64,000 bases of DNA, taken from assembly GCA_017427415.1 (NCBI GenBank), contig JAFRSU010000078.1, positions 1 to 64,000 of the forward strand. The letters are read 5' to 3'. Below, piece after piece: positions 24,337 to 35,073 of this stretch; position 1 is the first letter of the stretch; each line of letters begins with the position of its first letter. The notes beneath the pieces were generated by a model. It did no database searches, was not told the origin of the DNA, and worked only from the letters and a program-made list of their open reading frames with translations. The position numbers were made by a program, and so were the translations under genes. The DNA is from Lachnospiraceae bacterium (GTDB lineage: Bacteria; Bacillota; Clostridia; Lachnospirales; Lachnospiraceae).

Positions 24337-24368
24337 AATCAAGCGTGCTGAGGTAATCGGCATGATAT

Positions 24369-24451
24369 GCGGAGTTGCTGGAATTGGCAGACAGGCATGA
24401 CTAAGGATCATGTATCGCACAGATGTGAGGGTTCAAGTCCCTTACTCCGCA
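24369..24451 (+). tRNA. tRNA-Leu (anticodon AAG), island insertion site
   Basis: 83 bases. Acceptor stem GCGGAGT/ACTCCGC with discriminator A, anticodon arm CATGA-CTAAGGA-TCATG giving AAG, class II variable arm and T loop GGTTCAAGTCC. Its last ~38 bases are repeated exactly at 35033-35073 and partly at 27342-27372, so integration restores the tRNA 3' end. Its natural terminator now lies 10.6 kb away at 35082. Confidence 0.95.
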
Positions 24452-24453
24452 TT
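24413..24453. repeat. attL: tRNA-Leu 3' end, left junction of island
   Basis: 41 bases from TATCGCACAG to CCGCATT are identical to 35033-35073. They span the variable arm end, T arm and acceptor 3' strand of the tRNA, the usual target of tyrosine integrases. Confidence 0.9.
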
Positions 24454-24494
24454 CAGAAAGTGCCTAGAATATAGGCATCGCGGGCATTTAGTCC

Positions 24495-24544
24495 TGCGAC
24501 AGTTTCGTGATAATCGTTGTAAATTTGCGACACTTATTGCGACA
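24495..24544. repeat. Candidate arm-type integrase sites, left end
   Basis: TGCGACA (24495-24501), TTGCGACAC (24525-24533) and TTGCGACA (24537-24544). The same word occurs at 27270-27278, 27292-27300 and 34972-34980, always 40-75 bases from an att copy. Confidence 0.65.
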
Positions 24545-24600
24545 TAAAAGAAAAAAGTGCTTCAGGAGTTCCTGAGGCACTTTTCTTTTGAGAAAATAGG

Positions 24601-25332
24601 TCAGCCATAATTGAGGGCAGCGTTAATGATCCTACATTTTTCGTCTTGAGGTCTGCGGTCTTTATGATAGTACTGTTCTGTGGTATGACGATCTGTATGT
24701 CCAACCTGGTCAAGTATAAGACGGTCATCGACATGAGCGTCCAATAATTTGGAACAGACTGTCTTACGAGCTTTATGAAGTCTTCTGGGTACAATTTTAA
24801 GCTGGTGGCAGATGCTGTTCAGTTTATCACTGAAGACTCTTCCCTGTATTCTGCATCCATCGTTGTTGGTAAAGATGAATTCATTATCACCAAAGTCCTT
24901 ATAGAGTGCTTTGAGAGCTAATGAAGCCTCCGTGGGAAGAGTTATCGTCCTTAAGCCTTCTTTTGTCTTAGTATGAGGTACTACTTCAAAATGTCGTTTC
25001 CCTTCGTGGTCTTTATAGGTTATTTCAGAACTTTGTATTTTGATAGTTCTAAAGTCTTCGGATACGTCCCTCCATCTAAGAGCTGCGAGTTCTCCACACC
25101 TCAAGCCTGCATAGAACGCTAACAGTATACCCACATTAACCATGGAGAACTTATGTTGCTTTATGAAGGTAAAGATGGAAACAACTTCTTTGTCTGTAAA
25201 GACCTGTTCTTCATTCTTTTCTTCTTGCTGTTCAAGTGCCTTGTTGCTTATGGATAGAACTTTGAGGAATTCTGTTATATAAAGTTCTGTTTGTTTCGTT
25301 TTCTTACCATAGAGCCAAATACCGCTTATCAA
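24601..25332 (-). pseudogene. Tyrosine integrase, N-terminally truncated
   Basis: 243 residues of a phage/ICE-type integrase. The catalytic residues are present: Arg78 (YAGLRCGE), Lys124 region (TKTKEG), His186-x2-Arg189 (RLHKAR), His212 (VGHTD) and Tyr221/222 (QYYHKD). Full-length relatives have ~380-400 residues with arm-binding and core-binding N-terminal domains, which are missing. The reading frame continues upstream about 18 codons (KLNRKGWLKLKA) to a TGA without any ATG or ribosome site, and the TTG start at 25332 is not credible. I conclude that the 5' third was deleted. It points toward the tRNA, normal for such elements. Confidence 0.8.
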
Positions 25333-25627
25333 GGCTTTTAACTTCAGCCATCCCTTACGATTGAGCTTTCTTAATTGTAAATAATAAAATCCTTTTCAAT
25401 TCATAGACAAAATGATATACTAATTATATTGTAATTCTGAAGAATGCTAGAAATACACTAGAAAACTATATTATTATGCGTAAACAATATTGTGCAATAG
25501 AAAAAATGGCAAATCTAAAACAAAAAAGCAGGAAATATTTCAGAAAAGATGTTAAAAACAGCGAAAAATAAAGAGATGACAAAAGTGTCGCCAGTGGTGA
25601 CACGATTATAAAAGAGGTAATAAATCT
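25333..25627. other. Intergenic region with 19-bp palindrome before DUF1016 gene
   Basis: AT-rich sequence left after loss of the integrase 5' end. The notable feature is GTGTCGCCAGTGGTGACAC at 25585-25603, a near-perfect palindrome 24 bases before the DUF1016 start, matched by GTGTCACCATTGGTGACAC inside that gene (25904-25922). AAAGAGG serves as its ribosome site. Confidence 0.6.
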
Positions 25628-26632
25628 ATGAACGAAATTGATAAAAGCTTTAAGACGGTAGTTACGATTATAGAAAACGCGCGTGAGAACGCTTACCGAA
25701 AAGTAAATGAAGAACTGATACTTATGTATTGGAATGTAGGTCACTTCCTTTCAGAGCAATCGAAAGAAGCTAAGTATGGTGACGGATATATTGATGCTCT
25801 TGTCTCTTTCATACAGGATCAGTTTCCGGGAATAAAAGGTTTCAATCGCCGTGGCTTGTACAGAATGAAGCAGTTTTTTGAGCTTTATACTGGAAATGAA
25901 AAAGTGTCACCATTGGTGACACAATTAAGCTGGACGAATCATCTGCTAATTATGTCTGGCTGTAAGTCTGATGAAGAACGTGAATTCTATATGCAACTGG
26001 CAATTAAGGAACGATACAGCAAGCGCGAATTGGAGCGTCAGATGGACAGTGGATATTATGAACGGTATATGCTTTCTAAAGAAAAGCTTCTTCCGGAGAC
26101 GATAAAGGCCGAGCTGAATCCATTCCTGGACTCATATGTGATTGAGTTTCTGGATCTTCCGCCGAAGTTCAAGGAAAAGCACCTGAAAAAAGGGCTTATC
26201 GAGGGAATGAAGAAATTTATCCTAGAGCTTGGCAAGGACTTTACTTATGTCGATGAAGAATATACTATCATGGTCGGTGGGGAGGATTATCATGTGGATC
26301 TTTTGTTTTATCACAGGACATTGCGCTGCCTTGTAGCGCTGGAACTGAAGACCGGAAAGTTCAAGCCGGAATACATATCCAAGATGGACTTCTATCTGGA
26401 AGGACTCGACCGACAAGTGAAGAAGCCGGATGAAAACCCGAGTGTAGGTCTGATTTTATGCGCTTCAAAGAATGATGAAGTAGTGGAATATGCCATGAGC
26501 AGGACAATGTCGCCTATGATGGTGTCACAATACCAGCTACAATTACCGGATAAAGAGGTGCTACGGAGAAAACTTCAGGAATTGGCAAATATACCGATGC
26601 TTGAAGATAACGAAGGAGGAAAAAACGAATGA
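25628..26632 (+). CDS. DUF1016 / YhcG-type PD-(D/E)xK nuclease family protein
   Basis: 334 residues. The N-terminal half (about 10-150) is DUF1016_N with the conserved VTQLSWTNHLLIM. The C-terminal half (165-320) is a PD-(D/E)xK nuclease fold: Asp224 (YHVDLLFYH), Glu239-x-Lys241 (ALELKTGKF) and a following helix. Relatives sit in restriction-modification and defence islands, often next to hsd genes; the exact activity is not settled. Here the stop overlaps (ATGA) the start of a truncated type III methylase, so it was once part of that operon. It is the only intact gene of the left element. Confidence 0.85.
   Translation: MNEIDKSFKTVVTIIENARENAYRKVNEELILMYWNVGHFLSEQSKEAKYGDGYIDALVSFIQDQFPGIKGFNRRGLYRMKQFFELYTGNEKVSPLVTQLSWTNHLLIMSGCKSDEEREFYMQLAIKERYSKRELERQMDSGYYERYMLSKEKLLPETIKAELNPFLDSYVIEFLDLPPKFKEKHLKKGLIEGMKKFILELGKDFTYVDEEYTIMVGGEDYHVDLLFYHRTLRCLVALELKTGKFKPEYISKMDFYLEGLDRQVKKPDENPSVGLILCASKNDEVVEYAMSRTMSPMMVSQYQLQLPDKEVLRRKLQELANIPMLEDNEGGKNE
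25904..25922. repeat. Intragenic 19-bp perfect palindrome
   Basis: GTGTCACCATTGGTGACAC within the DUF1016 gene, coding VSPLVT. With flanks it aligns to the upstream copy at 25585-25603 over 27 bases with four differences (AAAGTGTC...GACACxATTA). Confidence 0.6.
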
Positions 26633-26751
26633 GCAACCTGTTTGAAACAGTCAAAGAAATCCTAGAAAAGGATAAGCGTTTCCTCTCCACAGATGAAATC
26701 ATTATGAGGAATGCAGTAATTGTAAGAATTGGTGTCAGATATACTGTATAA
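26629..26751 (+). pseudogene. N-terminal stub of type III DNA methyltransferase (mod)
   Basis: Starts in ATGA overlap with the DUF1016 gene behind AAGGAGG. It encodes MSNLFETVKEILEKDKRFL...MRNAV, which resembles the first 30 residues of type III restriction-modification Mod subunits (LFEAVKEILKKDKRF...LRNAVYEAA), then diverges and stops after 40 codons. A whole Mod has ~600 residues, so nearly all of it is gone. The junction abuts the minus-strand gene at 26735. Confidence 0.65.
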
Positions 26752-26914
26752 ATCTGTCGCGTTCCTCCTTGGAGAGCTTTCCTATCGTAACCCCTTTGCT
26801 TCTGGCTAATTGTAATGCACCTCTCATGTCGAGTATGGCTTTGGGGACGATGGGTTCTTCCATTTTTGAAAGGTTCTTAAGATAATTCTCATATTTCGTC
26901 GTCTGACCATTCAT
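26735..26914 (-). CDS. Small conserved-looking protein, unknown
   Basis: 59 residues (MNGQTTKYENYLKNLSKMEE... to DRFIQYI), all helix by appearance, no Cys or membrane segment. ATG 26914 has AAAGGAG 7 bases upstream; two earlier ATGs fit that site less well. It follows and overlaps the end of the deleted gene at 26889-27159. I recall similar short proteins beside small two- or three-gene toxin-antitoxin-like loci in Lachnospiraceae but cannot name a family. Possibly functional, possibly a leftover. Confidence 0.5.
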   Translation of the reverse strand: MNGQTTKYENYLKNLSKMEEPIVPKAILDMRGALQLARSKGVTIGKLSKEERDRFIQYI

Positions 26915-27159
26915 AATCATACTCCTTTCTGATGTTTCTGGCTGCTTCATCGAAAAAGCCAATCTGGTATTCATGAAGCATACGCATTTCTTCAGCTCCA
27001 AATCTTGTTATAAAATGCTGCATTATTTCTTCGGAACGGCAGAACCCGGTAACATCACCATTATATCCGAGCTGTTCAGATCTTTCAATGGCAATAGCGA
27101 GAAGATGTCAAGTTATCAATTAGACATGGTACCAATTCATCTATATCAACGCATATCAT
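26889..27159 (-). pseudogene. Internally deleted gene of unknown family
   Basis: Behind GGAGGGA a good start at 27159 encodes MICVDIDELVPCLIDN and then runs into a stop (TGA near 27085). In another frame the sequence continues as LLAIAIERSEQLGYNGDV...FGAEEMRMLHEYQIGFFDEAARNIRKEYDYEW to 26889. Both halves resemble the two ends of a ~170-residue protein common in Firmicutes, so about 100 middle codons were lost with a frame change. Family recognition is from memory only. Confidence 0.55.
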
Positions 27160-27269
27160 ATATCTATCCCTCCAATTCTATTATACACCTTTTTGACGAT
27201 TTTAACAAGGTCTTTACAAAGGAAATGTTTCTATGTATTGTCTATGTTGTGATTATGATGTTATAAAGC

Positions 27270-27300
27270 TTGCGACACTTATATTGAAAATGTGCGACAC
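27270..27300. repeat. Candidate arm-type integrase sites, middle
   Basis: TTGCGACAC (27270-27278) and GTGCGACAC (27292-27300), 42-72 bases left of the internal att copy. Confidence 0.6.
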
Positions 27301-27341
27301 TATATTCGGGAAGCCCATATTTTAAGCGACCCGAGGCTTAC

Positions 27342-27372
27342 ATGTGAGGGTTCAAGTCCCTTACTCCGCATT
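27342..27372. repeat. Internal att copy (31 bp of tRNA-Leu 3' end)
   Basis: ATGTGAGGGTTCAAGTCCCT and the following ...TACTCCGCATT match 24423-24453 and 35043-35073 exactly; the ten preceding bases differ. It marks the boundary between two tandem elements or the site of an earlier insertion. Confidence 0.85.
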
Positions 27373-27428
27373 TACTCTAAAACCATCATGAAATATGTTA
27401 ACGGAATTGTCCTAATGTAAAATTTATA

Positions 27429-27457
27429 TTGACATATTGCCATCGGTGGTATATATT
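27429..27457 (+). promoter_or_regulatory. Promoter of riboswitch 1 transcript
   Basis: TTGACA (27429-27434), 17-bp spacer, TATATT (27452-27457). Transcription would begin near 27464, about 15 bases before the aptamer. Confidence 0.75.
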
Positions 27458-27477
27458 ATTTCATAAGGTACAAATTG

Positions 27478-27570
27478 ATTTTGGCAAACTATCTGAAAAG
27501 ATAGGACTGCAAAGCTATAGGGACTAAAGGATTACAAGGATGTTATCACATGTCAGCCAGTTGCAATATA
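27478..27570 (+). ncRNA. Cyclic-di-GMP-I (GEMM) riboswitch, copy 1
   Basis: The aptamer core of the GEMM class is recognisable: TTGGCAAAC, hairpin CTATC-TGAAAA-GATAG containing the GAAA-type loop, GACTGCAAAGCTATAGGGACTAA in two pieces (GGACTGCAAAGC and AGGGACTAAAG), and ATGTCAGCCAGTTGC at the 3' side. Terminator 27582-27616 follows as expression platform. Whether the ligand turns the gene on or off cannot be read. Distinguishing c-di-GMP from c-GAMP (GEMM-Ib) needs a covariance alignment. Controls the gene at 27724. Confidence 0.85.
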
Positions 27571-27581
27571 GTGTGATTAGA

Positions 27582-27616
27582 TAGCATCGTAATTCCTTAG
27601 ATACGGTGCTTTTTTG
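27582..27616 (+). terminator. Riboswitch 1 expression-platform terminator
   Basis: GCATCGTA (27584-27591) pairs with TACGGTGC (27602-27609), followed by TTTTTTG, 12 bases behind the aptamer. Confidence 0.85.
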
Positions 27617-27723
27617 TTTTGCTTTTGAATGGATTTAAACTAGGGTCAAGAGAGAACTCGATAATGAACTAGTGTGATATCTGCAAAACCTACAAATATA
27701 TTATAGAAAGGATGTTATAAGTC

Positions 27724-28347
27724 ATGAAAATTAAGCAATTTAGTTGCCCTAATTGTGACAGCCAATTAGATCCCAACATGATTGAGGATAACACCTCGAT
27801 TTATTGCCCATATTGTGGTTATTATTTTACAGTTGAAAATGAAAACCATACTCAAACAATTAATAAAAATATTAATAAAACGGTTACTATTAATAAAAAT
27901 ATTCACAATCAAATTACAAATGATGCAGAGGTAATAAGGGCAAATACTGAAAGAAAGAAACATAGCAGCGGTAATGCGTGGGCAGTTTTCTGGATCATAG
28001 TAGTTATAGGGCTTGTTGTATTTGGAGTTGTAAAGTTAAAAGAATATGACGCAGACCAAAAAGCAAGAATGGCGGAACAGGAAGAAGCTATAGAAAAGGC
28101 AGAACGAGCAGGAAAAATACAAGTCCAATATGATTCCTACACTTTTAAGGATGAAAACTACAAGACTGTAAAAGCTAAATTGGAAGATGCCGGATTTACT
28201 AATATTGAAACTGTAGATTTAGAAGATTCTGGTTTAGCATTTTGGAATTACGGGAATGTGGAGTTTGTTTCAATTGATGGCAAGAAAAACTTTTCTTCGG
28301 ATAATTATTATATGCCTGATGTTAAGATAGTTATCTACCATCATTGA
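27724..28347 (+). CDS. Zinc-ribbon membrane protein with PASTA-like C-terminal domain
   Basis: 207 residues. A zinc ribbon starts the protein (Cys8, Cys11, Cys28, Cys31: CPNCDS...CPYCGYYF). An Asn/Ile/Thr-rich stretch with repeated INKNI follows, then one membrane helix (WAVFWIIVVIGLVVFGVV, about 93-110) and a charged helix. The last ~65 residues resemble a PASTA-type fold (YKTVKAKLEDAGFTNIETVDL) and would be outside, with the ribbon inside. AGAAAGGA lies 11 bases before the ATG. Expression is under the c-di-GMP riboswitch 108 bases upstream. Function unknown; a sensor is plausible. Confidence 0.75.
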   Translation: MKIKQFSCPNCDSQLDPNMIEDNTSIYCPYCGYYFTVENENHTQTINKNINKTVTINKNIHNQITNDAEVIRANTERKKHSSGNAWAVFWIIVVIGLVVFGVVKLKEYDADQKARMAEQEEAIEKAERAGKIQVQYDSYTFKDENYKTVKAKLEDAGFTNIETVDLEDSGLAFWNYGNVEFVSIDGKKNFSSDNYYMPDVKIVIYHH

Positions 28348-28374
28348 TTTAATTTACGAGAGAGTGGAAAGATA

Positions 28375-29064
28375 ATGTTTTGTATAAAATGTGGAAATGA
28401 AATACCTGGAGATTATGTTTTTTGCCCCAAATGTGGTACTCCGACAATAAATAACAAGAATAGGAACCACTCTGAAACGAATCATGCGGTTGAAGAACAG
28501 CCGGGTATAAGGCAAAGGCCAAATAAAAAGGAATACATTTCGATAATGAATAATAAGTCTATAAAGAAGATATTAATACTTGTTATAGGCTTAATAATTA
28601 TTGGAGTTTTTTTCTCGCTGATTAAAGAAAACCCTAAAACAAAAAAAATACTCAATTATGTTAATGGAAGTTCAAAAAAGGAATTTGCCAATATTGAAAG
28701 TAAAATGATTGAAAGTTTTAATAGTTTTTGGGGGGACAATAGTAAAACTGATCAGGACGTTTATGATGAAATATCTCAAAAAACTATTGTATATGCAAAA
28801 CAATTAAATACAATAGCAAATGATATGTTACGCGAAATAGACGATGAAGAATTACGAAATGTACATAAAATCCTGATTGACTATAGTGATGCGTTTGTAC
28901 AGATCTGTACAAAAATGCTCTATGGGATAGATAACAATGACTTGAGCGTAATTGATGAAATAAAAGAGTTAAAGAAAAAAACCAGTAGACTAGCAGATGA
29001 ATATTGGTCGGAACTTACAGCTTTAGGCAAGAAGAACGGGGTTAGCATAAAAAAAGTCGATTAA
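28375..29064 (+). CDS. Zinc-ribbon membrane protein with helical C-terminus
   Basis: 229 residues. Zinc ribbon at residues 3-22 (CIKCGNEIPGDYVFCPKCGT), a polar linker, one membrane helix (IKKILILVIGLIIIGVFFSLI, about 63-83), and an external helical domain of ~140 residues rich in Glu, Lys, Asn and Asp. It lies 27 bases after the previous gene and shares its layout (ribbon inside, helix, outside domain), so they are probably co-transcribed and may act together. Family unknown. Codon use is strongly AT-biased as elsewhere in the island. Confidence 0.7.
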   Translation: MFCIKCGNEIPGDYVFCPKCGTPTINNKNRNHSETNHAVEEQPGIRQRPNKKEYISIMNNKSIKKILILVIGLIIIGVFFSLIKENPKTKKILNYVNGSSKKEFANIESKMIESFNSFWGDNSKTDQDVYDEISQKTIVYAKQLNTIANDMLREIDDEELRNVHKILIDYSDAFVQICTKMLYGIDNNDLSVIDEIKELKKKTSRLADEYWSELTALGKKNGVSIKKVD

Positions 29065-29111
29065 CTATTAGAGATATAAGGGAGATACCATTCAGGTATT
29101 ATCATATAAAT

Positions 29112-29206
29112 AATTTGGCAAAGCATCTGAAAAGGTGTGTCTGCAAAGCTAGAGGGACTAAGGGATTACAGGGATGTTATCACATGTCAGCCAGTTGCAA
29201 AATAGT
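29112..29206 (+). ncRNA. Cyclic-di-GMP-I (GEMM) riboswitch, copy 2
   Basis: A near-duplicate of copy 1: TTTGGCAAAG, CATC-TGAAAA-GGTG hairpin, TCTGCAAAGCTAGAGGGACT, the identical ATGTTATCACATGTCAGCCA and GTTGCAA. The two copies share the 3' half almost base for base, while the P2 stem keeps pairing with different bases. No clear promoter lies in the 48 bases before it, so it may act within the transcript of the upstream genes. It controls the gene at 29269 and those after it. Confidence 0.85.
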
Positions 29207-29217
29207 GTGAACAAATA

Positions 29218-29249
29218 GCATCCTAACTTTTGGTTAGGATGTTTTTGAT
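29218..29249 (+). terminator. Riboswitch 2 expression-platform terminator
   Basis: GCATCCTAAC (29218-29227), loop TTTTG, GTTAGGATGT (29233-29242), then TTTTGATTTT. Stronger stem than in copy 1. Confidence 0.85.
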
Positions 29250-29268
29250 TTTGTGAGGAGGGATATTA

Positions 29269-29499
29269 TTGATTCCAGGTTATATAACAACAAAAGAAGC
29301 ATCAGAGCGTTGGGGAATAAGCATACGGTATGTAAATGTACTGTGTCATAACGGGAAAATTCCGTTGGCACAGAAGCTTGGAACGATATGGGCTATACCG
29401 GAGGATACTGAGAAGCCAACGCAGGACAGAAGAATAAAGTCAGGAGAATATAAGAACTGGCGTAAAAGACATAACAATAAGAGGGGAGAATTAGCATGA
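29269..29499 (+). CDS. Small helix-turn-helix DNA-binding protein (excisionase/MerR-like)
   Basis: 76 residues. YITTKEASERWGISIRYVNVLCHNGKIP followed by GTIWAIPED is the winged-helix pattern of excisionase/MerR-like proteins (helix, turn, recognition helix, then the wing). The tail is basic. The start is TTG at 29269, with GAGGAGG at 29255-29261 well spaced. It is the first gene behind the second riboswitch. In an integrative element such a protein could be an excision factor, or a regulator of the following genes. Confidence 0.75.
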   Translation: MIPGYITTKEASERWGISIRYVNVLCHNGKIPLAQKLGTIWAIPEDTEKPTQDRRIKSGEYKNWRKRHNNKRGELA

Positions 29500-29613
29500 G
29501 TAGCATGTTTTTACGCTTTTGAATCATAGGAAGCTGGTTTTGTTATTTTGCTGGTAAAGAATAATAGTTAAACAAACTGTAATATGTTGCAAATATAAAA
29601 GGAGGAACTAGGT

Positions 29614-30996
29614 ATGAATAATCTTAACTTAACTAATATGAAGAAACGATTGGAAAAAACTTCACGTAGATCACCAATTAAAGATTATGGTTTTGATGAC
29701 TTAGAAGACTTTTATGAAAATGGGATACATATAAAACAGGATTATGAGGATATAGATGATTTTGAAGCTATTGTTATGTACATAGGGTATTCTGTGGCAG
29801 ATAGATTAAGGTTGGATTATGAAGAGTATATACACTGGGCAAAGGCGCAAGAGAGTTTTATTAGCGCATGCCTCTTTAAATTGATTGATGAGAAAAATCC
29901 TGATATTACTCTGGAAGAATACAAATTAATAGATGAAACTAAAACTCATGATAGTTATAATAGAGCGGTCAAAAAGATAGCTTCATTTAGAAGATGTATA
30001 GAAATAAGTGATACAAATGTCGAAAATTCTATTCCTGCTTTGGGAAAGTATTATATTATTAATGATCAAATTAAGAACCTAGGCACTATATTAAAGGAAC
30101 AAAAAAAGTATATTAAAGAATTTTGGAACACATTTTTGCAACAATATAAAACCCTTATAAATAAAAAAGATAGAAATATTTTTAAATCAAAAATCTCTGA
30201 TATAGTTGATTGTGAGCTACATGCGTATTGGAGTAAATCAAAAAGACTATTAAAAAAATATAATATCAAAGATAAATCAATAGAGTATATTAAAAATACC
30301 TTTTTTAATAATATTCAAACGGAGTATATTATTGATGGTATAGAGGATGCTTATGACGAATTAGAAGATAGTTATTCTGACGGAATAGACCAAATTGGCG
30401 ATTATTATGAAAACAAAGCTAACTCAATAGAATTTTTGGGAATTGGTAAAGGTTTAAAAGGGATTGCTCAAATAATAGGAGCGAATGTTTTTAATAGTGT
30501 TAAAGACTCCTATTATCTTCATCGAGCACTTGGAAAAGGAAGAAAACTACAAAATGATTTTGATGATTTAGTTAGTGAAATTTATTTTGGTATAGAAACT
30601 CAAAAGTTATATGAGAAATTTTTCTATACGGATTTAGTGAGTATTATCACACCGTATTGTTTATTTATTATTGATGGAGGAATAGAAAACCAATTAATAG
30701 TTGAGTCTCAGTATTTAGAGGGAATGGAACAAATTGGTAGTTTGACGGAAGATGAGAAAAATGATTTGTTTGTTAAACTTCTTCAGGTGTTTCCATTTTC
30801 GCCATACATTTACGTTTTCATATATGAAAACAATAGGGGTTATTATGACGATTTAATAAGATTAAATGATGCTTTAGGAAATGACAAGTTATTCTTCGAC
30901 AATCAAAATAATACAGAATGTAATACATTTGAAATCTACATTAAAACTCTTACAAATGATGATTTGTTGTATTCTTCAAAAAAGAAGAACGAGTAA
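29614..30996 (+). CDS. Unknown helical protein; first half of a probable frameshift fusion
   Basis: 460 residues, mostly helical, acidic, no match recognised. Residues ~270-305 (FLGIGKGLKGIAQIIGANVFNSV) form a Gly-rich amphipathic or membrane-touching segment between two long helices. AGGAGG precedes the ATG. Near the end it reads TC-A-AAA-AAG, and from there the -1 frame stays open without a stop through the whole next ORF. A -1 shift would give a single protein of ~1373 residues. Alone it ends SSKKKNE 4 codons later. It may instead be a gene broken by loss of one A. Confidence 0.65.
   Translation: MNNLNLTNMKKRLEKTSRRSPIKDYGFDDLEDFYENGIHIKQDYEDIDDFEAIVMYIGYSVADRLRLDYEEYIHWAKAQESFISACLFKLIDEKNPDITLEEYKLIDETKTHDSYNRAVKKIASFRRCIEISDTNVENSIPALGKYYIINDQIKNLGTILKEQKKYIKEFWNTFLQQYKTLINKKDRNIFKSKISDIVDCELHAYWSKSKRLLKKYNIKDKSIEYIKNTFFNNIQTEYIIDGIEDAYDELEDSYSDGIDQIGDYYENKANSIEFLGIGKGLKGIAQIIGANVFNSVKDSYYLHRALGKGRKLQNDFDDLVSEIYFGIETQKLYEKFFYTDLVSIITPYCLFIIDGGIENQLIVESQYLEGMEQIGSLTEDEKNDLFVKLLQVFPFSPYIYVFIYENNRGYYDDLIRLNDALGNDKLFFDNQNNTECNTFEIYIKTLTNDDLLYSSKKKNE
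30978..30984 (+). other. A AAA AAG slippery heptamer joining two ORFs
   Basis: In the frame of the upstream gene the codons read TCA AAA AAG AAG AAC GAG TAA. A -1 slip on A-AAA-AAG (30978-30984) continues as GAA GAA CGA GTA AAA and stays open to 33734. No ATG, GTG or TTG with a ribosome site begins the downstream frame. No strong Shine-Dalgarno stimulator or downstream hairpin is obvious, so transcriptional slippage, phase variation in A6/A7, mutation or an assembly error remain possible. Confidence 0.6.
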
Positions 30997-31202
30997 AAGA
31001 AGCAATTACAAAAAAACTCTGTCGTGAAATAGAGCAAGCGTTTTCTACTCCTAATAGTGTAATAAAGAAAATACATAAAAAAATAAAAGAAGAGTTTGTT
31101 CAGGGGTTTCATTGCTATCCGGAGCAGAAATTTTTTGAAGACTATTCGAGTATTTATTGCAAATATAGATATAATTGGGAACTGTATAATTATCCTTTAG
31201 CA

Positions 31203-33734
31203 GTGTATTCCGATAAAGGGACACATATAATAATCTATTTAAATGCATTAACGATAATGCAAAAAGAGAAAAAAACAAATATATTATTTGAAAACATTTA
31301 TGATATAAGATTAGTCTCATCAGATATGATATTCTATTGTATTGGTAAAAATGATACTATTACTGAAAACAAAATTTCTTTCACTGGAATTGACAATAAA
31401 AAGTTCGTTGATTCGTTTTGGAAAGTATGGGCAGTATTTTTAATAGATTTAGTACAATGTACACTCGATAAAACTTTGGCGGTAGTGAGCAATGAATTAA
31501 AAGTGTATAAAGAAGATTATTTACATAGAATTTTTAATCTTGAAGCAACAAGAGAGTTATATTTATTAAAGGGCGAAGAAAGTATAAGAAAAATAATTAA
31601 GTTCATGACCTCTAAAATGGTGGTTAGAGATTATTTGCCTTTAGCAATATTTGATTGTGGATTAAGAATATTTTTTTATCAGACATATTTTATTATTGAA
31701 TGTTTTGCAAACAAGATAGGAAGAGAACTAATCAATTATGAATATGTAAAAGGATTATTTTATGTTAAAGGTTATTTAGTCATAATCAGCCAAGGGATAA
31801 ATCAACCTGAAAAAATGATGCGGATAAGCAGATGTGAATGTTCGCAAGTAAAAAGTCTATTTAATATATTTACCTCAGTATTAGGATATACAGAGAGTGA
31901 TTGCTCTGAACAATGTTTTAGACAGAAGTTTAATAAATACTATCTTGAATTGTTAGAGATTAATAAAGAAGACTTGAATTTAGAACAGCAGATGAAACGG
32001 GCACTTTCCATAGAAGATAGATTTTCTATACGCTATTTTGAGAAACCAACAAAAAGACATTTGATTTCCATGGTGACTGATAAAGGAAAAGTACTATATT
32101 CTGATGGAAAAGATCGTACTAGTAAATTTGAACCAATAAAATTGGCTAAATTATTTGGATTGACCACTGGTAAACCGGGGTTTATATGGGTTAATAGAAA
32201 TGGGAAAGTTATATCTGAAGGTGATGTAGATAAAGGTATAACTACAAATTGGAATAATATTGTAGCCATAAGTAGTGATGCGCTGTTAGGTTTAAGTAAT
32301 GATGGAAAAGTATATACTAGATATGGAAAACCCCTTAATACAAAAATAGATGTTAATGAGGTTGTTCGGTTTTATGAAACATATAATGGTTTTGTTGTAT
32401 TAAAAAAGAATGGGTCCATTGATAGTGATTCTACGGGAGGCTTTATTCCAATAATTCAAAAGTGGAAAAATATTAGGAATTTCTCATATAGTACATATCA
32501 TGTAGTAGGATTAAAAGTAGATGGTACGGTAGTAGCAACGGGAAGAAATAATCATGGACAGTGTAATGTTGGTGATTGGAATAACATTATCTCTGTTACT
32601 GCAGAAGATGAATTAACCGTAGGGGTAAAAAAGGATGGCACTATTATATGGGCGGGTTCTCCATATCTAAGGATAGCTACAGAGAGAACAGATATTGCAA
32701 TTGATGTTTCTAAAGAACTAAACACATGGAAAAATATTATATGTGTTACTTCAGGACCCGGTCTTATACTTGGAGTTGACAATACTGGAAAAATATTAAT
32801 AACACCTCCACAAAACAATCAGAATATTTCAAATTGGAAATTAGATATACCAGATATCATTTTAGAAGAGACTCTGAGCGCTGAAGATCGATTCTTGTCA
32901 AAGGACAATGCCTCAAATATAATTAGTCCTCAGGATGAGGAAAAAGGACGGGATTTGACGGCATTTATGATAAAACAATATAATTATGCTGTTGAATCAG
33001 ATACTGTTGCCTTTAGTAGATATATATTAAAAGCATTAACAGGAAATGTTGGAGAGTACTTTGGAGAGCTGGTAACAAAAAATTATAATTATTCCAATCT
33101 TCCTGATTTATTCAAAAGTGCTATGGTTTTTTCGTGTTCGAAGCAGGTAATTCTTACTGATCAAGCATTGATTTTGTATGGTGATAAAGAGGTTATTGGG
33201 TTACCATTTGCTCGAGGTTTGCTAGAATTGCTACCAGTATATCTTATAACTGAGACTACTAATTATAATCATTGGGATCAAAAGACTTTGATGTATCATT
33301 GGAAAGACAATAAAAAAACTGATATATACCGTTTTTCAACAATAAATACTGATGAGATTAAAATATTAAAAACTGTTTTTAGATTGTTTAATTATCGGAA
33401 TGAATCTTCTATAAAATATCAGTTTTTTAGAGAAGGGGGGAAAAACAGAATAAAGGTTGGAGGTCATTTCTGTGGTAAAACAAGATGTTTTACTGATGAA
33501 TATGATAAAAAGAGAGGATTAATAAAAACGGTTTATTATTGCAAAAGCTGTGGCAATAAAATCACAGATGGTAATCATTATGAAATAGATAGTAATGTAC
33601 TGTCTGCAGAAGAATGTGACATGACCATTTTGGATGGTTTGAACGAAAAAATATATGCCGAATATGAGAATGATAAATATGGTGTACTAAAGTATTATAA
33701 GGAATCTTATGAGCGCATATTACAAAATAGTTAA
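31203..33734 (+). CDS. Large protein with PH-like ends, RCC1-like repeats and zinc ribbon
   Basis: 843 residues from GTG 31203, but that codon has no ribosome site and the frame is open upstream to 30963, joining the preceding ORF by -1 shift. Residues 1-110 look like a bacterial PH-type domain (HIIIYLNALTIMQKEKKTNILFENI). Residues ~300-560 contain RCC1-like blade repeats (VGLKVDGTVVATGRNNHGQC, VGVKKDGTIIWAG, WNNIISV). Another PH-like domain is near 630-730 (KQVILTDQALILYGDKEVIGLP). A zinc ribbon with four Cys (HFCGKTRCF...CKSCGNK) lies near 765-800. No signal peptide; likely cytoplasmic. Function unknown. Confidence 0.65.
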   Translation: MYSDKGTHIIIYLNALTIMQKEKKTNILFENIYDIRLVSSDMIFYCIGKNDTITENKISFTGIDNKKFVDSFWKVWAVFLIDLVQCTLDKTLAVVSNELKVYKEDYLHRIFNLEATRELYLLKGEESIRKIIKFMTSKMVVRDYLPLAIFDCGLRIFFYQTYFIIECFANKIGRELINYEYVKGLFYVKGYLVIISQGINQPEKMMRISRCECSQVKSLFNIFTSVLGYTESDCSEQCFRQKFNKYYLELLEINKEDLNLEQQMKRALSIEDRFSIRYFEKPTKRHLISMVTDKGKVLYSDGKDRTSKFEPIKLAKLFGLTTGKPGFIWVNRNGKVISEGDVDKGITTNWNNIVAISSDALLGLSNDGKVYTRYGKPLNTKIDVNEVVRFYETYNGFVVLKKNGSIDSDSTGGFIPIIQKWKNIRNFSYSTYHVVGLKVDGTVVATGRNNHGQCNVGDWNNIISVTAEDELTVGVKKDGTIIWAGSPYLRIATERTDIAIDVSKELNTWKNIICVTSGPGLILGVDNTGKILITPPQNNQNISNWKLDIPDIILEETLSAEDRFLSKDNASNIISPQDEEKGRDLTAFMIKQYNYAVESDTVAFSRYILKALTGNVGEYFGELVTKNYNYSNLPDLFKSAMVFSCSKQVILTDQALILYGDKEVIGLPFARGLLELLPVYLITETTNYNHWDQKTLMYHWKDNKKTDIYRFSTINTDEIKILKTVFRLFNYRNESSIKYQFFREGGKNRIKVGGHFCGKTRCFTDEYDKKRGLIKTVYYCKSCGNKITDGNHYEIDSNVLSAEECDMTILDGLNEKIYAEYENDKYGVLKYYKESYERILQNS

Positions 33735-33839
33735 ATGTTATGCGGAAAATTCTTGCATATATATGATAATATATTAAAGTGTGGAGAAACCATAAGATGA
33801 AAAAAACTTGTATATGTCAGCGTAAGGAGATGGGAATGA

Positions 33840-34886
33840 ATGACCAAAATGAATAACGAAGAAAAAAAACGCTTAATTGCGAGGTCAAAAGAAGCTTTTA
33901 AAAAAGAATTTAGTCATATAAGCGAAAATGATTGGGATATTTTTTTTGGATACATTAATGAAGAGGAACTATTATATGCTTTCACCATTTTGCTTGATGC
34001 AAGAAAGGAAGATATAGAAGTAGAATGTTCATTTGAGAATCGATTTGTTGATGAAAACGATACGCACAGATTTATGATATTTGGAGAAGAAAGGCTTCCT
34101 CTAAATTATGATAATGTTCTGGCAATTATTCCTAATGGAGAATTTAAATATTTATACGAAAAAGAAGACATCACAGAATCGTTTGTGTCATGTATAGAAA
34201 TGTTACGAGGGGATTCTTATTCTGGACGTTTTTTATTTTCAGGAATAATAGATGAGGAATCTGCAAATGAAGGATTTGCAGACTTGAATTATACAGAACT
34301 TGTTTATATGACATCAGTATATATGATTGATGAACAAAGTGCTATTTGGAAGAGATATTTTGCAGAATCATATAGATTATACGAATCTGGACAGTACAAA
34401 TTAGCTTTTTTACATTCATTCATCGGTTTTGATAGTTTAATAGAGTATTTGAATGGCATTTTATATGATGTATATCAAAAAGAACAAAATGAATACTTGG
34501 AAGGGGCTTTTATTAATTATAACAGACAATATTTTACCCCATTAAGGCTTATTGAAGAATGTGTTTTGGATAGTCAATCATACCAAAGAATGAAGCATTT
34601 AGAATCTGAAAATAGAGGACTCATTGATGATAAGCTTCTAACCATTCTTCGCTATGTTAATGATCTTGAGAATAAAGTTGCAGAAAGAGAATTGACTTGT
34701 TTTAAGTTCTATGAAAAATTGAGAAATGTGTTGGCTCATGGTGATTCATATGAAAGAGAAGACATAAAAGAAATGCGATTATATCAAAAGTATTATGATG
34801 TAGATGAGAATGAAATGAATTTTAAATCAATATATTGTGATTTCTTTGAAAATATCGGCCAATTAATTAAGAAATTAGTAAACTAG
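33840..34886 (+). CDS. HEPN-domain protein, candidate RNase
   Basis: 348 residues. The N-terminal ~150 residues are acidic and unrecognised. The C-terminal part (about 165-345) is helical with the HEPN hallmark R-x4-H at Arg295-Asn296...His300 (KLRNVLAHGDS) preceded by an ApeA/HEPN-like helix (ESGQYKLAFLHSFIGFDSLIEYL). HEPN proteins with this motif are usually metal-independent RNases of defence and toxin systems. The gene follows the RCC1-like gene by 105 bases and is the last of the island, with GGAGATGGGAA upstream of the ATG. I infer an effector role; activity is not shown. Confidence 0.7.
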   Translation: MTKMNNEEKKRLIARSKEAFKKEFSHISENDWDIFFGYINEEELLYAFTILLDARKEDIEVECSFENRFVDENDTHRFMIFGEERLPLNYDNVLAIIPNGEFKYLYEKEDITESFVSCIEMLRGDSYSGRFLFSGIIDEESANEGFADLNYTELVYMTSVYMIDEQSAIWKRYFAESYRLYESGQYKLAFLHSFIGFDSLIEYLNGILYDVYQKEQNEYLEGAFINYNRQYFTPLRLIEECVLDSQSYQRMKHLESENRGLIDDKLLTILRYVNDLENKVAERELTCFKFYEKLRNVLAHGDSYEREDIKEMRLYQKYYDVDENEMNFKSIYCDFFENIGQLIKKLVN

Positions 34887-35032
34887 AAATAAGAAGATAC
34901 TTATAAAAGGATGAAGATGAAAAAATGGCGAAATCGCATCCGTTTCCTTTCGTAGATTTAAATTAGTGATTTTGCGACACGATACCCCAAAACGGCAACA
35001 CCATATGCAGAAACGCCCATAAAACATGGGGT
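34887..35032. other. Right end of island, non-coding
   Basis: Non-coding stretch with one TTGCGACAC at 34972-34980, the arm-type repeat seen at the other att copies. Short GC-richer sequence (CCCCAAAACGGCAACACC) follows before attR. Confidence 0.55.
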
Positions 35033-35073
35033 TATCGCACAGATGTGAGGGTTCAAGTCCCTTACTCCGCATT
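35033..35073. repeat. attR: duplicated tRNA-Leu 3' end
   Basis: 41 bases identical to 24413-24453; right junction of the island. Confidence 0.9.

Follow-up and report, generated by a model that had tools for sequence, protein, structure and literature searches.

Why would a small integrative island carry two riboswitches of the same class, and which of its genes would they control? The window analysed here, a 64,000-nucleotide stretch of a Lachnospiraceae contig from a bacterium of the gut or rumen, was first characterised in a preliminary description that placed two near-identical c-di-GMP-I riboswitches, SW1 and SW2, on one integrative element and proposed that the cargo is tuned to host c-di-GMP. 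We take up the island, the switches and the genes behind them in turn, using comparisons with related genomes.

Two c-di-GMP-I switches at a tRNA-Leu insertion site

The island spans 24413-35073 at a tRNA-Leu gene, with exact 41-nt att repeats, equal to the tRNA 3' end, at both borders (Table 1). Four siblings (G020, G011, G014 and G017) have the empty site, a single uninterrupted att copy. The repeats and empty sites bear out the term integrative element, with the qualification that where a tRNA-targeted element would be expected to have an intact integrase, there is a 243-aa catalytic remnant with its N-terminal part missing and the upstream frames closed. By its sequence, the tRNA-Leu locus has been used repeatedly for insertion, because another genome (G010) has two att copies ~1.1 kb apart with intervening sequence related to window positions 26717-27372. 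The middle att copy divides the island into unit A, which contains the truncated recombinase and a YhcG-type protein, and unit B (27342-35073), which begins directly after that copy and contains both switches. GCGACA(C) repeats, possibly recombinase arm sites, cluster near the unit ends at 24496-24544, 27272-27299 and 34974-34979.

Table 1. Features of the island in the window, with the evidence for each.
Feature	Position	Strand	Evidence
Host tRNA-Leu (AAG), integration target	24368-24452	+	ARAGORN
attL, 41-nt repeat, tRNA 3' half	24413-24453	+	exact direct repeat; siblings' empty site
Tyrosine recombinase, truncated to its catalytic part (unit A)	24601-25332	-	PF00589, 78 bits
YhcG/DUF1016-type PD-(D/E)XK protein (unit A)	25628-26632	+	PF06250, PF17761; PADLOC PDC-S02
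Middle att copy, 31 nt exact, splits units A and B	27342-27372	+	repeat family D2
P(SW1), putative promoter, TTGACA-17-TATATT, spacer dyad TGCC-N6-GGTA	27429-27457	+	promoter and dyad search
SW1 c-di-GMP-I aptamer	27473-27568	+	Rfam cmscan RF01051, 60.1 bits, E 2.9e-9
SW1 predicted antiterminator	27524-27600 (27524-27555 with 27574-27600)	+	fold; duplex -22.3 kcal/mol, z -3.7 against shuffles
SW1 predicted terminator hairpin and U-tract	27583-27615	+	fold, -10.0 kcal/mol, z -3.7
znA, zinc-ribbon and TM protein, first gene after SW1	27724-28347	+	weak zinc-ribbon matches below cut-off
znB, zinc-ribbon and TM protein	28375-29064	+	PF13240, 30.9 bits
SW2 c-di-GMP-I aptamer	29107-29202	+	Rfam cmscan RF01051, 53.8 bits, E 1e-7
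SW2 predicted antiterminator	29171-29224 (29171-29185 with 29205-29210 and 29216-29224)	+	fold; duplex -21.1 kcal/mol, z -3.1
SW2 predicted terminator hairpin and U-tract	29215-29246	+	fold, -14.7 kcal/mol, z -6.7
HTH_17/excisionase-like protein, 76 aa, TTG start	29269-29499	+	PF12728, 24.6 bits (cut-off 27); phrog_2655, E 1e-8; paralogues
p460, cargo	29614-30996	+	no relative found among 299 genomes of the family
RCC1-repeat protein, 843 aa	31203-33734	+	PF13540
p348	33840-34886	+	no family above cut-off
attR, 41-nt repeat, same as attL	35033-35073	+	exact direct repeat

A covariance-model search confirms two c-di-GMP-I riboswitches, with 60.1 and 53.8 bits against a gathering score of 35 for RF01051, at the loci first described, although the exact ends given there were off by ~5 nt. 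As had also been noticed, both contain the common 3' segment ATGTTATCACATGTCAGCCA, each has a P2-type hairpin built from different bases (CUAUCU-GAAA-AGAUAG in SW1, GCAUCU-GAAA-AGGUGU in SW2), and each is followed by an intrinsic terminator. Alignment of the specificity position finds a G before CAAA in SW1 and SW2, with no exception among the 31 genus switches in the alignment; we take this G to be G20 of Vc2, the ligand-reading position. In c-GAMP variants the specificity position is an A. The Rfam scores are moderate and each switch has two non-standard pairs, as might be expected if both had degenerated and lost ligand sensing, but such a loss is very unlikely given that the core, the G before CAAA, the tetraloop, the terminator and the antiterminator discussed below are all retained.

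The label near-identical proves too strong: SW1 and SW2 share 84% identity across the aptamers and 88% across 113 nt, and SW1 is as close to another switch of the same genome (C86, 83%) and to one in a sibling species (82%). With other switches equally close, a local duplication of SW1 and SW2 as a special event was dropped. In the alignment, ATGTTATCACATGTCAGCCA recurs with small changes in many genus switches, and on this sequence evidence it marks a subfamily of switches and does not prove local duplication. A genome search found seven c-di-GMP-I switches above cut-off in the host and an eighth below, and at this density the estimated chance of two switches within 10.7 kb is ~2e-4. The host very likely makes c-di-GMP, because 27 GGDEF matches and four flagellins accompany the multiple switches in its genome. 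The proposed tuning of the cargo to host c-di-GMP is plausible in the light of the same GGDEF and flagellin matches, whereas a special local duplication is not supported.

Expression platforms and the predicted promoter of unit B

In both switches, the GGAUGUUAUC region in the aptamer 3' half can pair with the terminator 5' arm AUAGCAUC in a predicted antiterminator, whose duplex is stronger than in dinucleotide shuffles (the basis of the duplex z-scores in Table 1), and the same tendency is seen in most of 13 related switches. A comparison of own with swapped terminator arms was uninformative as a covariation test because the arms are too alike, and the shuffles were used instead. Since the antiterminator pairing excludes the aptamer fold, SW1 and SW2 are predicted to be OFF switches. 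At low c-di-GMP, the aptamer 3' half would pair with the terminator 5' arm, giving the antiterminator and the ON state; with c-di-GMP bound, the aptamer fold would be held, the terminator would form and transcription would stop. We infer both the ligand response and its OFF sign from the sequence. The modelled case for the SW2 antiterminator is weaker and rests on co-transcriptional folding, because at equilibrium full-length SW2 folds preferentially into the terminator form, while SW1 gives the antiterminator form; the SW2 antiterminator fold was obtained with a transcript ending before the terminator 3' arm.

How the two switches would be coupled depends on where transcription starts. Within 27300-29300, P(SW1) (TTGACA-TATTGCCATCGGTGGTA-TATATT) alone is convincing as a promoter of its class, and the promoter search upstream of SW2 found nothing recognisable, which is absence of evidence only. 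From the terminator of SW2 to attR, terminator prediction found no other. The sigma-A promoter P(SW1) would start the unit B transcript, SW1 would control the reading of the zinc-ribbon genes by transcription attenuation, and SW2, lying 1.6 kb downstream and acting in series with SW1, would gate the HTH gene together with the large cargo. Because SW2 has no recognisable promoter and terminator prediction gives no further one up to attR, the most economical reading is that P(SW1) serves both switches in series, and we put its chances at about even. Most other switch-HTH cassettes carry their own sigma-A promoter just upstream, which would suit two independent switches, each with its own promoter, stemming from two separately recruited gene blocks; we find this doubtful for the window, where nothing promoter-like precedes SW2 and where the gap between the znB stop and SW2 measures 43 nt with no terminator predicted in it. 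No relative of znA was found in the genome contigs.

The HTH gene behind SW2

What the preliminary description overlooked is that SW2, itself without a recognisable promoter, leads into a small HTH gene that in this genus always lies within a c-di-GMP-I-led operon. The host genome has three paralogues of this gene, each directly downstream of a switch. Across 24 genomes of the genus, all 14 long-form HTH genes (those above 110 bits) lie in switch-led operons, 13 of them directly downstream of the switch and the last, at L223, in fourth place in a run of genes led by a switch. None of the genus matches with lower scores is preceded by a switch; at one of these loci (L107) a switch lies on the opposite strand. 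The genus profile was built from switch-linked members, and hence the search was repeated with the single window HTH sequence in 392 genomes of the order, mostly drafts: an aptamer lies just upstream at 8 of the 28 top loci outside the genus, related loci being non-independent samples. The switch-HTH loci outside the genus belong to several genera and two families. Three long-form loci outside the genus (L068, L070 and L071) had no switch, and neither had the HTH relatives on viral contigs. The RNAalifold-based model R1 has 13 pairs only, and key switch hits were checked with Rfam. In the open-licence literature, we found no paper that links a c-di-GMP-I switch to such HTH genes. At one locus (L027, G008:C86), only the first ~10 residues of the HTH gene are left, joined to a zinc-ribbon frame, with the upstream switch intact.

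The genes that follow the switch and the HTH gene vary, and include polysaccharide deacetylase, SPFH, GH3, dynamin, Uma2, histidine-kinase-like, WYL and AAA proteins. A block of switch, HTH, WYL, dynamin and HerA-like genes is shared at 81-83% DNA identity by loci in different families (L272 in G362 and L273 in G553); since near-alike cassettes occur in different families, transfer between families is likely, and the block is possibly a defence-related operon. The aptamer and the HTH gene are both homologous between loci and the genus copies may derive from few events, so that the linkage might mean no more than common descent from one duplicated cassette, the HTH and the switch being functionally unrelated. 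We think this rather unlikely, because the linkage is found again, with different cargo, in several genera and two families, and because a dN/dS of 0.035-0.07 between close homologues places the HTH gene under strong purifying selection.

In the promoters before switch-HTH cassettes the spacer is 17 nt long, with C6 and G15 in 14/14, and spacer complementarity peaks at centre 10.5, a value reached by 2 of 2000 column permutations. The dyad motif was first spotted by eye, post hoc, and later tested on other loci: among HTH loci without a switch, a set not used for motif discovery, it is present in 39/54 promoters. Overall, the dyad occurs in 50 of 67 HTH-family promoters versus 7 of 181 clean control promoters of the same loci (p 5e-30, a value that is too small since the loci are related), and full three-pair dyads occur in 25 HTH promoters versus 3 controls. 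The consensus operator is roughly [TG]C[GC]-N6-[CG]G[AC], between -35 and -10. Operator position 7 is associated with HTH residue 23 at z 14.4, compared with 2.9 for the next tested column; Q, N or A at this residue goes with G7 (41/41) and R or G with C7 (6/6), together 47/47, with a covariation p of 9e-8 (3e-6 after dereplication). Because of the spacer dyad and this covariation, the HTH family looks like a set of own-promoter binders, and thus of putative autoregulators, that would occupy the dyad between -35 and -10 and might either repress or activate.

A conserved operator in the own promoter is thus found for the family, whereas the window pair does not fit the code. P(SW1) shares its half-sites, TGCC-N6-GGTA, with locus L243, which encodes the window HTH's closest relative outside the genus (61%). 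The window HTH has N23, which elsewhere goes with G7 (A7 in L033), and action of this protein on P(SW1) is unproven because N23 mismatches the C7 half-site found there. In genome G002, two switches with no nearby HTH gene (L022 and L029) carry the C6 and G15 marks, and the genome has one HTH gene elsewhere; control in trans is possible at these loci.

Could the HTH protein instead be the directionality factor of the island, with SW2 controlling an excisionase so that low c-di-GMP licenses excision? The protein resembles HTH_17/excisionase-like proteins in its MerR-like helix-turn-helix and its length of ~75 aa, it matches phrog_2655, one phage homologue is annotated as an excisionase, and the island is att-flanked with a recombinase gene; moreover, the proven excisionase of C. 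difficile phiCD630-1 is of the HTH-17 type (PMC7699646). Its scores nevertheless fall under the curated Pfam and NCBIfam cut-offs (HTH_17 24.6 against 27; TIGR01764 24.4 against 28.8), the island recombinase has no N-terminal part, and the operator code indicates promoter binding. At the other switch-HTH loci examined, there is no tRNA gene in the surrounding 3-20 kb, the next genes encode deacetylase, SPFH, GH3, dynamin, WYL or AAA proteins, and no integrase appears among the scanned genes, a subset in limited stretches. We regard a c-di-GMP-licensed excisionase as quite improbable, and excision control by SW2 and the HTH protein is unlikely because the other loci examined have no tRNA genes.

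A putative two-layer leader and its known relatives

We consider it probable that unit B is a c-di-GMP-gated accessory operon, that the HTH family acts as autoregulators, and that the switch placed between promoter and HTH gene makes up a portable two-layer leader. The order would be an autoregulated promoter, a c-di-GMP attenuator, the HTH gene and variable cargo; in the genus and sporadically elsewhere, the c-di-GMP-I switch appears to sit between a dyad promoter and the HTH gene. C-di-GMP would set the level of the regulator, which would in turn set the promoter, and one set of accessory genes seems to be subject both to a host lifestyle signal and to a local regulator. The wider proposal, that a portable cassette of Lachnospiraceae and related families combines a residue-23-code autoregulator with a c-di-GMP-I attenuator between operator and gene, carries defence-like and surface cargo and is exchanged between families, might as easily fail as hold.

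Most known c-di-GMP switches precede genes for motility, adhesins and pili. Were such switches recurrently linked to a small self-regulating DNA-binding protein, this would show accessory islands plugging into a host lifestyle signal, and would make the excisionase label of a widespread gut-bacterial gene family questionable. The operator and the residue-23 code allow direct and cheap binding tests. Comparison with known systems identifies the following points:

(i) SW1 and SW2 resemble the C. difficile class I switches in sequence and fold, in having a terminator and in their predicted OFF logic, most of those switches being reported in PMC7699646 to terminate transcription prematurely with c-di-GMP. 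They differ from known c-di-GMP-I switches (RF01051) in the predicted gating of an HTH autoregulator and island cargo, and in being two copies 1.6 kb apart on what is apparently one transcript.

(ii) The C. difficile prophages phiCD630-1 and phiCD630-2 are similar in that they too are mobile elements with class I switches (cdi1_4 and cdi1_5), but there, in the sections drawn on (PMC11477304, PMC7699646), each switch lies upstream of the antitoxin RNA of a type I toxin-antitoxin pair. The same material does not describe the phiCD630 excisionase CD0912 as switch-controlled.

(iii) Unlike what the excisionase-like label implies, no integrase was found among the genes scanned at the other switch-HTH loci, and the promoter-spacer dyad suggests an autoregulator.

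(iv) Tandem riboswitches, as treated in PMC9481103, likewise put two or more switches on one transcript, but SW1 and SW2 are separated by two genes and are not adjacent.

Three further observations concern individual loci. A switch and HTH gene stand before two helicase-like proteins that match defence models (MkoA and GajB), with a PIN-domain gene adjoining (L274:2759-8648). On one viral contig, a Type-P5 twister ribozyme lies close to an HTH relative (L239:3379-3433). Upstream of the switch at L001, L014, L015 and, in a weaker form, L017, a TAAA-N15-CCGATA-like site takes the place of the sigma-A promoter; such sites resemble those of flagellar sigma-D, which fits c-di-GMP OFF control of motility-phase genes.
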